The notes below the pieces were generated by a model. It did not search any database and had not been told where the DNA came from. It saw nothing but the letters and a program-made list of their open reading frames with translations. The translations under genes and the position numbers were made by a program. Below are positions 21,266-24,079 of a stretch of 43,803 nt of DNA, piece after piece. Positions within the stretch are counted from its first letter, which is position 1, and each line of letters starts with the position of its first letter. Where the stretch lies: the NCBI GenBank assembly GCA_016793045.1, contig JAEUKZ010000015.1:1-43803 (forward strand), read 5' to 3'. Source of the DNA: Alphaproteobacteria bacterium (GTDB lineage: Bacteria; Pseudomonadota; Alphaproteobacteria; CACIAM-22H2).

Positions 21266-21951
21266 TCGCTCCGCGACGCAGGCGCGCCGGTGAGCGCGAC
21301 GTCGCCGCGTGCCGGTGCTTGCGCAGCGGGCATCCGTCTTGCGCCGGAGGCCGGCCCGCCGCCGGCATAGGGGTCGCCGGTCCTGTCGGCCGGCGGCGGG
21401 CGCATCGCGGCGAGGAGATCGGCGATCGACGGCTCACTGTTTGGACGCGGGGCGGGGCGGGCCGGCGCTGCGGCCGGGCGGCGCTCGCTCGCGGCGCGCG
21501 GCTCGGCAGGCGGGGCCGGATCGGCCGCGGGCGCCGTCTGCGGGGCTGGCCGCGGTTCGGCGGCGGGACGCACCAAGGCGGCGCGTGCCGGCGGTACGGG
21601 CGGCGGCGACGCGATCGGCGCAGCAGGCACCGGCACGGCAGCCATGACGGGGGCCGGCGGAGCGGCCGGCGGCGGCGGCCGGCGCGGCAGGTCGGCCACC
21701 TGGCCCATCTGCGTGGGCACCATCGCCTGCATGGCAAGATGGCGCTGCGCCAGCGCTTCAAGCCGCTGCGGCTGGTTTATGTAGGCCCATTCGGCCCGCA
21801 GCACGTGGATCGCGTCCTGCTCTGCGACGATCTGGCGATTGAGCCGGAAGAGATCGTCCTCGAGCGCCTGCACGCGGTGCTTGAGCTGGTAGGTACCGAC
21901 GCCGACCGCGCCGGCGAGACCGATCCACAGAAAGGTCGAGGCGCGGATCAT
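21262..21951 (-). CDS. ftsL: Cell division protein FtsL with long Pro/Ala-rich extension
   Basis: FtsL is a small bitopic protein that forms a complex with FtsB and FtsQ. Position between rsmH and ftsI, a single N-terminal membrane segment (about 5-20) and a following heptad-type coiled coil ([15 protein letters not shown]) with [15 protein letters not shown] identify it. The product has 229 residues, about twice the usual 90-130. The extra part is a Pro/Ala/Arg-rich tail from about residue 98 that should lie in the periplasm. Start and stop both overlap neighbours by four bases (ATGA), so the length is not an annotation artefact. Tail function is unknown. Confidence 0.88.
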
Positions 21952-22916
21952 TGCACGCTCTCCGTCGCCACGGCATCGGTGCGGATCGCCCAGCGCAGCT
22001 TGGCCGAGCGGGCGCGCGGGTTGGCGGCGCATTCCTGGGCCGACGGGCGGATCGCCTTTCGGCTGCCGTCGGTGAAGGTCGGGCGCGCCGCGCGCGTGGC
22101 CGGCAGATGACGCGACACGCCGGCATGGCCGCTGCGCCGCGCGAGGAACGTCTTCACCACGCGGTCTTCGAGCGAGTGGAAGGAGACGACGGCGAGGCGT
22201 CCGCCGGGCGCCAGCAGCCGCTCGGCCGCGGCGAGGCCGCGATCGAGCTCGTCGAGTTCGTCGTTGATGAACACGCGCAGCGCCTGGAAGGTCCGCGTCG
22301 CGGGATCGATCCCGTCGTTCGAGCGCGGCACGGCGCGGCGCACGACGTCGGCCAGCTGGAAGGTTCGCTGGAAGGGCCGGGCCCGGACGATTGCGCGCGC
22401 GACGGCGCGGGCGCGGCGTTCCTCGCCGAAGCGGAAGATGATGTCGGCGAGCTCGCCCTCGTCAGCGCCGTTGACGATGTCGGCAGCGGTCGGCCCGCGG
22501 CCTTCCATCCGCATGTCGAGCGGACCGTCCTGGCGGAACGAGAAGCCGCGATTGGGGTTGTCGATCTGCGGCGAGGAGACGCCGAGATCGAGCGCGATGC
22601 CGTCGACGCGGGTGATGCCGCGCTCCGCCATCAGCTGGTCCATCGCCCCGAAACGGCCTTCGATCACGGTCAGGCGGCCGGGGAAGTGCTTGGCGAGCGT
22701 GGCGCCCGCGGCGATCGCCTCGGGATCGCGGTCGATCCCCCAGACGCGGCATTCGGCTTTCTTCAAGATCGCCTCGGCATAGCCGCCGCGCCCGAACGTG
22801 CCGTCGACGTAGTCGGCGCCGTCGCGCGGCGCCAGAGCCGCCAGCACCTCATCGAGCAGCACCGGCGTGTGGCCGCGCTCGACGACCGGGGCGATGACGA
22901 CGAGTTCAGCCGCCAT
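21948..22916 (-). CDS. rsmH: 16S rRNA (cytosine-N4)-methyltransferase RsmH (MraW)
   Basis: RsmH methylates N4 of C1402 in 16S rRNA using S-adenosylmethionine. The 322-residue protein begins with the family segment [13 protein letters not shown], then the SAM-binding [14 protein letters not shown] at about 38-51, [23 protein letters not shown], and the C-terminal [13 protein letters not shown]. The chosen ATG overlaps the mraZ reading frame by 11 bases, typical of mraZ-rsmH. Its 3' end overlaps ftsL by four bases. Confidence 0.97.
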
Positions 22917-23355
22917 GGTCGCTCTCCGGCGCGCCGGCGCGCGCCGGCGGGCGCACGAGCGGATGCGCCGCGCGGAACGCGCCGAGTTCCCAGATCTCGA
23001 AGTAGCTGATGCGGCCGACCACCATCGCCTGGTCGACGATGCCCGCATAGTCGATCAGGTCCTTGGGCAATACGACGCGGCCCTCGCCGTCGAAGGGCAG
23101 GCGGACCATGTCGGCGACAGAGGCGAGGGTCGCGTCGGCCGGCTGCGTCGAAAATGCGGACATCGGATCGTTGTTGCGCGCGATCGCTTCCATCAGGTCG
23201 ACGCTGACGCAGCGGATCGCATTGGCAGCGGGCGACGGAAACGCGAGAATCCCGGCGAAGTTCGGCAGAGTCAGCGCCGCGCGGAATTCGGCGGGGACCG
23301 AGATGCGGCCCTTCCGATCCACCTTGAACGCATGCTTGCCGAAAAACTGGGCCAT
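22906..23355 (-). CDS. mraZ: Transcriptional regulator MraZ
   Basis: MraZ is the first gene of the dcw operon and in E. coli encodes an autorepressor of it. The 149-residue protein has two swapped-hairpin AbrB-like repeats, each with its signature: [13 protein letters not shown] near residue 13 and [12 protein letters not shown] near residue 89. A 12-bp palindrome of C/G (23361-23372) lies five bases before the start codon and may fold over the ribosome site. Four TGGG boxes lie 102-141 bp upstream of the start codon and are the likely operator. rsmH overlaps its end. Confidence 0.95.
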
Positions 23356-23456: not shown

Positions 23457-23496
23457 TGGGATGTCATGGGATAACATGGGACTATATGGGCGTCAA
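23457..23496. promoter_or_regulatory. MraZ operator: four TGGG boxes at 10-bp spacing
   Basis: On the plus strand TGGG occurs at 23457, 23467, 23477 and 23487, exactly one helical turn apart. The first three are TGGGA and the last is TGGGC, each with a five-base spacer. MraZ of E. coli is known to bind TGGGN direct repeats with five-base spacers in front of its own operon. The boxes read on the strand opposite to mraZ transcription. They overlap plausible -10 sequences, so MraZ would block the promoter. This is the only such array noticed in the window. Confidence 0.8.
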
Positions 23497-23523
23497 ATGG
23501 ATTCCCTTGGGAAATCACGTCAA
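23468..23523 (-). promoter_or_regulatory. Candidate dcw (mraZ) promoter region
   Basis: The stretch 23356-23675 holds no gene and is AT-rich around 23500-23560. On the minus strand two TTGACG hexamers (23523-23518 and 23496-23491) resemble -35 boxes. The second has TATCCC 17 bases downstream (23473-23468). A better -10-like TATAGT lies at 23486-23481 but lacks a good -35. All overlap or adjoin the MraZ boxes. The exact start cannot be fixed by eye. Confidence 0.4.
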
Positions 23524-23531
23524 GACAGGTA

Positions 23532-23547
23532 TTTAGCAAATATTAAC
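23532..23547. promoter_or_regulatory. Near-consensus CtrA site upstream of mraZ
   Basis: The plus strand reads TTTA, seven bases, then TTAAC. This matches the CtrA recognition pattern TTAA-N7-TTAAC at all but one position. It lies about 177-192 bp upstream of the mraZ start, upstream of the candidate promoters and in an AT-rich stretch where chance matches are more likely. CtrA is the alphaproteobacterial cell-cycle regulator. Confidence 0.4.
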
Positions 23548-23675
23548 GACTTCACTTCTTGTGTTCTCTTTCTGTTCGGCGCGCACTTGTAGCGTGAGTT
23601 CAGCTGCACCACTGAGGAATGTGTTCGATTTTTGTTCCGGGTGCCGCAACCCGCCCGGGGCAGCGGCGGTGGAAA

Positions 23676-24079
23676 TGCCAGACGGCCTGTAAGCCGGGTT
23701 CTGTCCCCGCCCGCGAAGGCGGGGGATGACCATTCATCTGGGACGCCTGTCGCCAGGCGCCTCGCGCGACCGACCCGGGCAGCAACGCGGGAACGCGTCC
23801 GTCGGCCGAAGCCGACCTGCTGCCCCTATTTGGTCTTGCTCCGGGTGGGGTTTGCCGTGCCACTTCCGTTGCCGGAAGCGCGGTGGTCTCTTACACCGCC
23901 GTTTCACCCTTGCCACGCGCCCGCGGCCTCATCGGCCGCACGCCGTTCGGCGGTATGCTCTCTGTTGCACTGTCCCTGGGGTCGCCCCCGCCGGGCGTTA
24001 CCCGGCACCCTTTTCCCGTGGAGCCCGGACTTTCCTCGCCCGCCCCGTAGGACGTGCGCGGCCATCCGGCCGTCTGGCA
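23676..24079 (-). ncRNA. rnpB: RNase P RNA (class A)
   Basis: This RNA is the catalytic part of RNase P, which cuts tRNA 5' leaders. The ends pair as helix P1: TGCCAGACGG at the 5' end (24079-24070) with the complementary CCGTCTGGCA at the 3' end (23685-23676). Universally conserved blocks are present: GAGGAAAGTCCGGGC near the 5' end, ACAGAGAGCA with the GGTGAAACGG core, and ACAGAACCCGGCTTA near the 3' end. The length of about 404 nt is normal for the class. No T-tract terminator is visible after it. Location directly upstream of mraZ is also seen in other Proteobacteria such as Pseudomonas. Confidence 0.95.

Follow-up and report, generated by a model that had tools for sequence, protein, structure and literature searches.

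At this locus, four copies of TGGG stand in front of mraZ on the strand opposite to the operon, which raises the questions of whether they form an operator for MraZ and whether their direction is peculiar to this genome. MraZ is among the most widely conserved regulators heading the cell-division genes, and its sites have been described in few groups. Within the window, i.e. the whole analysed stretch of 43,803 nucleotides, the words start at positions 23457, 23467, 23477 and 23487 of the + strand. They lie upstream of mraZ in exact 10-bp steps, just as an earlier interpretation made from the letters alone (the sequence-only reading) had described. The + strand from 23457 to 23490 reads TGGGATGTCATGGGATAACATGGGACTATATGGG. 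As mraZ occupies the - strand (23355-22906), the boxes read as CCCA in the direction of the gene, with box starts between 135 and 105 nt upstream of the ATG, and the opposite directions of array and operon claimed in that reading are borne out. The three-box pattern TGGGN6TGGGN6TGGG did not arise when the window was dinucleotide-shuffled 100 times, and the 5.34-Mb genome holds no second copy of it. When up to two mismatches were allowed, the four-box pattern otherwise returned three sites elsewhere in the genome and the same site shifted by one box. Beyond the four putative MraZ boxes, two weaker box-like words are found on the + strand (23498-23511), namely TGGA (23498-23501) and TGGG (23508-23511), at spacings of 11 and 10 bp. 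They are possible fifth and sixth boxes, and many relatives carry a full CCCA fifth box at the place of the TGGA.

The gene set around the array is that of the head of a dcw operon. The mraZ gene (22906-23355, - strand) encodes a protein of 149 amino acids (PF02381) that keeps both DxxGR motifs (D13-R17 and D89-R93). The protein scores below the TIGR00242 cut-off, as does every member of our sample of the class. The second gene of the operon, rsmH (mraW; 21948-22916, - strand; PF01795), probably starts at the internal methionine of MAAELVV, as judged from the open reading frame. The features by which we recognise a MraZ operator are all present: at least three direct TGG(G) repeats with a 10-bp period, here four exact TGGG words, a place before mraZ where the dcw operon begins, and a genome whose MraZ is intact and retains the two DxxGR motifs. 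The upstream neighbour of mraZ is rnpB, the RNase P RNA (23674-24077, - strand; RF00010, E 5e-93). A divergent promoter shared with an upstream gene was considered as the cause of the reversal and ruled out, since rnpB runs in the same direction as mraZ both here and in 14 of the 20 alphaproteobacterial loci scanned. The reversed boxes thus do not belong to a divergently transcribed neighbour, rnpB being co-oriented with mraZ. About 36 bp upstream of the predicted -35 element, the - strand carries TTAATATTTGCTAAA (23532-23546), which is one base off a CtrA-type TTAA-N7-TTAA motif; CtrA motifs have been reported before mraZ of S. meliloti (PMC3616915).

The array is interlocked with a predicted promoter of the form TTGACG-N17-TATCCC with an extended -10. 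Its -35 element TTGACG (23491-23496, - strand) falls inside the segment marked by the sequence-only reading, which ends at 23496. It is followed by the extended -10 TG (23475-23476, - strand; CCCATGnTATCCCA is conserved) and, after a spacer of 17 bp, by the -10 element TATCCC (23468-23473, - strand). The latter shares bases with the third box, counted in gene direction, and the suggestion that boxes and -10 overlap is supported. From the position of the -10, transcription of mraZ is predicted to start at about 23461 (23460-23462, - strand), giving a predicted leader of about 106 nt. A generic promoter scan built on the E. coli consensus found no promoter here, because TATCCC matches the E. coli -10 consensus poorly; the -10 of S. 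meliloti is likewise poorly conserved (PMC3616915). In most genomes with an array, the chain is locked to the promoter in the arrangement TTGAC(G)CCCAT....TCCCATGnTATCCCAT...GTCCCA. At a distance of 16 or 17 nt, TTGA precedes the second box, CCCATGNTA, in 52 of the 58 family representatives that have CCCATGNTA, and conservation extends to boxes that lie beyond the -35 and -10 elements. Of 289 alphaproteobacterial genomes, 139 contain the composite word CCCATGNTATCCCA and five contain the reversed control; in the genome of the window the word is present once, at the array. A few genomes hold extra copies of CCCATGNTATCCCA; these look like chance, as they mostly lie inside coding sequence and lack further boxes.

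The leader of S. meliloti provides an independent check of this promoter rule. Applied to the S. meliloti locus, and presuming that the start codon of MNRFLSH is in use, the rule predicts a leader of 170-172 nt, and the published length derived from sequencing data is 170 nt (PMC5089854). For a genome of probable Rhodobacteraceae type by its inferred taxon (G043), degenerate antisense boxes lead to a predicted leader of 266 nt; the measured leader of R. sphaeroides is 268 nt (PMC5089854).

We then compared mraZ upstream regions across the Alphaproteobacteria, using one genome for each of 95 families. CCCA chains at exactly 10 bp comprised at least three boxes in 58 families and at least two in 82, so that the loss of conservation in relatives, which would have spoken against an operator, was not what we observed. 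Sense TGGG chains of three were found in none of the 95 families and chains of two in four, and a CCCA chain of three arose in 1 of 4750 Markov shuffles. For comparing strands between groups we employed TGG, a shorter core that both groups share. With this core, chains of at least three boxes were antisense in 78 of the 95 alphaproteobacterial families and sense in one, an antisense chain of three being missing in 17. Among 30 gamma- and betaproteobacterial genomes, the corresponding numbers were 22 sense and no antisense. A further set of 29 loci from mostly other phyla (Bacillota, Actinomycetota, Chloroflexota, Planctomycetota, Verrucomicrobiota and Myxococcota, with a few betaproteobacteria) gave 16 sense and no antisense. 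In E. coli K-12, TGGG lies in sense at -43, -33 and -23. A pattern scan of named genomes gave the same division, apart from one antisense 'Nitrosomonas' genome treated below. Among the matches listed, up to 120 stretches, mraZ was present in at least 39; the alphaproteobacterial ones (Sinorhizobium, Rhizobium, Thalassospira, Acetobacteraceae and others) were antisense, and those of Bifidobacterium, Corynebacterium, an Anaerolineae, a Planctomycetaceae and a gammaproteobacterium were sense. These comparisons of sequence indicate that the strand reversal is real and a rule for the class Alphaproteobacteria. The sequence-only reading was thus right to point to the reversal, which is not special to this operon. 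The number of boxes, which it had also singled out, is ordinary, as it ranges from two to five across the Alphaproteobacteria and is four in B. cenocepacia (PMC7761207). In the open-licence papers searched, we found no description of the reversed array.

Several loci depart from the common pattern. The lone sense exception within the class (G034, loci L346 and L353) has GTGG-type boxes before a diverged mraZ; two relatives of its family (L354 and L355) show degenerate antisense CCC words and do not share the sense array. An antisense case assigned to the betaproteobacteria, the metagenome-assembled genome Nitrosomonas sp. OFTM190 (G274, locus L204), is probably contamination or a mixed assembly, since it holds three mraZ genes; one of these scores as low as the alphaproteobacterial ones. 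In one family of probable Rhodobacteraceae (f22, loci L339-L342), weakened antisense boxes are located near -290, at the expected start of the long UpsM leader. An Rfam search of these probable Rhodobacteraceae leaders matched no family.

The boxes also differ between the groups in their core. The base preceding TGGG is A in a fraction of 0.76 of the alphaproteobacterial boxes, versus G in 0.90 of the gammaproteobacterial ones, and G fills the fourth position of the word in 0.82 (TGG-chain set) versus 0.50. The resulting cores are ATGGGA in the Alphaproteobacteria and GTGG in the Gammaproteobacteria. The GTGG core on the sense strand is a usual, non-defining trait of the sampled gammaproteobacterial operators, and the array in the window carries ATGGGA in antisense instead. 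Moreover, the position differs, with the array following the -10 in gammaproteobacteria and reaching from the -35 to the start site here.

To examine the link between the boxes and MraZ, we read about 1 kb before rsmH in 18 alphaproteobacteria in which searches at class and phylum level had found no mraZ. Two of these (G206 and G247) turned out to have retained a diverged mraZ and were excluded. Of the other 16, none had two boxes in step before rsmH, compared to 82 of the 95 families in which mraZ is present (Fisher p about 8e-12, with families that are not fully independent, a mraZ-less set that includes small and draft genomes, and compared stretches of about 1 kb and 400 bp). The co-occurrence suggests a tie between the boxes and MraZ, short of proof of contact. 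Several alphaproteobacterial genomes (loci L304-L321) keep rsmH and show neither mraZ nor boxes before it, among them two large genomes of one family (G157 and G230, 7.5-8 Mb).

Direct repeats before mraZ are known from several systems. According to PMC8475190 and PMC7761207, which cite Eraso et al. 2014, MraZ of E. coli is a repressor of the operon that encodes it, and the E. coli operator, as read from the sequence, likewise consists of direct TGGG repeats in 10-bp steps. There, three boxes lie in sense, 43 to 20 nt before the ATG, whereas the window has four in antisense, over the -35/-10 core and more than 100 nt before the ATG. B. cenocepacia likewise has four repeats at the dcw promoter, each of 7 nt with a 3-nt spacer and hence a 10-bp period, and its MraZ bound the repeat-bearing fragment in a gel shift; unlike here, the repeats have a GTG core and lie downstream of the -10, over the start site (PMC7761207). 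In Burkholderia relatives, we found the chain in sense. Mollicute MraZ sites are also direct repeats in the mraZ promoter region, although with the sequence AAAGTG[T/G] (Fisunov et al. 2016, as summarised in PMC8475190). In M. genitalium, MraZ represses, and its loss raised the downstream dcw genes (PMC8475190). The UpsM/dcw leader of R. sphaeroides belongs to an alphaproteobacterial dcw promoter as well; it differs in being long, in containing a terminator and in the lack of a separate mraZ start site (PMC5089854), and the boxes of relatives of probable Rhodobacteraceae type are weakened in comparison to those of the window.

Could the four words have arisen without any regulator, by chance or as a by-product of promoter sequence alone? 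Some box letters do double as the -10. This account can nevertheless be excluded for practical purposes by the shuffles and the conservation, given that no shuffle of the window matched, that 58 of 95 families but just one in 4750 shuffled sequences have a CCCA chain of three, and that boxes beyond the promoter elements are kept too. It is somewhat less far-fetched, and still very unlikely, that the repeats control transcription by folding into a G-quadruplex on the template strand of mraZ. The formula does fit, since GGG-N7-GGG-N7-GGG-N7-GGG (23457-23490) offers four GGG runs with loops within the range of 1-7 nt, and in S. aureus a G-quadruplex of the mraZ promoter reportedly forms and reduces the expression of a reporter (PMC11796246). 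Many alphaproteobacterial arrays, though, have two or three boxes only, the third G is present in only about half of the gammaproteobacterial boxes, and the capacity for four runs is consequently not kept across homologous promoters. Folding is unlikely to be the conserved function, since many of the homologous arrays fall short of four GGG runs, and neither the exact 10-bp step nor the loss of the boxes alongside mraZ would be expected of a folding element. Any MraZ array of four full TGGG boxes fits the G-quadruplex formula through its 10-bp period, and the motifs reported for mraZ promoters (PMC11796246) may be MraZ boxes.

A different kind of alternative accepts the array as a protein-binding site and disputes the outcome, in that MraZ binds and activates, or that the main binder is a different protein, with MraZ as a bystander. 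The role of MraZ in mycoplasmas is described as different from that in E. coli in the account given by PMC7761207, the flipped geometry could alter contact with the polymerase, and CtrA motifs have been reported before S. meliloti mraZ (PMC3616915). Against this stand the location of the boxes between the -35 and the start, with bases common to the -10, which is typical of repression, their disappearance together with mraZ, and the rise of dcw genes upon loss of MraZ in M. genitalium (PMC8475190). We thus regard activation or a bystander role as improbable, albeit less so than folding.

Boxes, conservation, orientation, promoter register and co-occurrence with mraZ are direct observations. Together they make it quite likely that the array is a MraZ operator extending over the dcw promoter from -35 to +1 and repressing by occlusion, where binding and repression are what we infer from sequence. 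The operator interpretation of the sequence-only reading is in this sense supported by the comparison. In the proposed mechanism, TTGACG-N17-TATCCC and the extended -10 TG on the mraZ strand would serve as the recognition site of the housekeeping sigma factor, while the four boxes would occupy the DNA from just past the -35 to the start site and supply part of the -10 with their own letters. MraZ, an oligomeric AbrB-like protein with structures in the PDB (1n0e, 9qlr, 9sx6 and 9qlg), would contact the same side of the DNA at each box, the boxes being spaced by one helical turn; binding of MraZ to repeats with a 10-bp period has precedent in the gel-shifted Burkholderia fragment (PMC7761207). 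Bound MraZ would then block RNA polymerase, which would place mraZ, rsmH and the dcw genes after them under negative autoregulation. The strand flip would presumably alter the geometry and not the logic of this control. Since the strand of the boxes sets the facing of the MraZ ring, its polarity on the promoter should oppose that in E. coli. As for the origin of the arrangement, we give about even chances to a scenario in which, at or near the base of the Alphaproteobacteria, the operator moved to the other strand and from the start site to the promoter core and changed from GTGG to ATGGGA, together with a divergent MraZ.

If this reading is true, MraZ docks at the dcw promoter with opposite polarity in the entire class, and its encounter with RNA polymerase or with cell-cycle regulators may be altered as a result. 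The class-wide reversal and its interlock with the promoter provide precise sites for study in a class with well-studied cell-cycle models, and they open a way to study if repression depends on the direction in which MraZ sits on the DNA.
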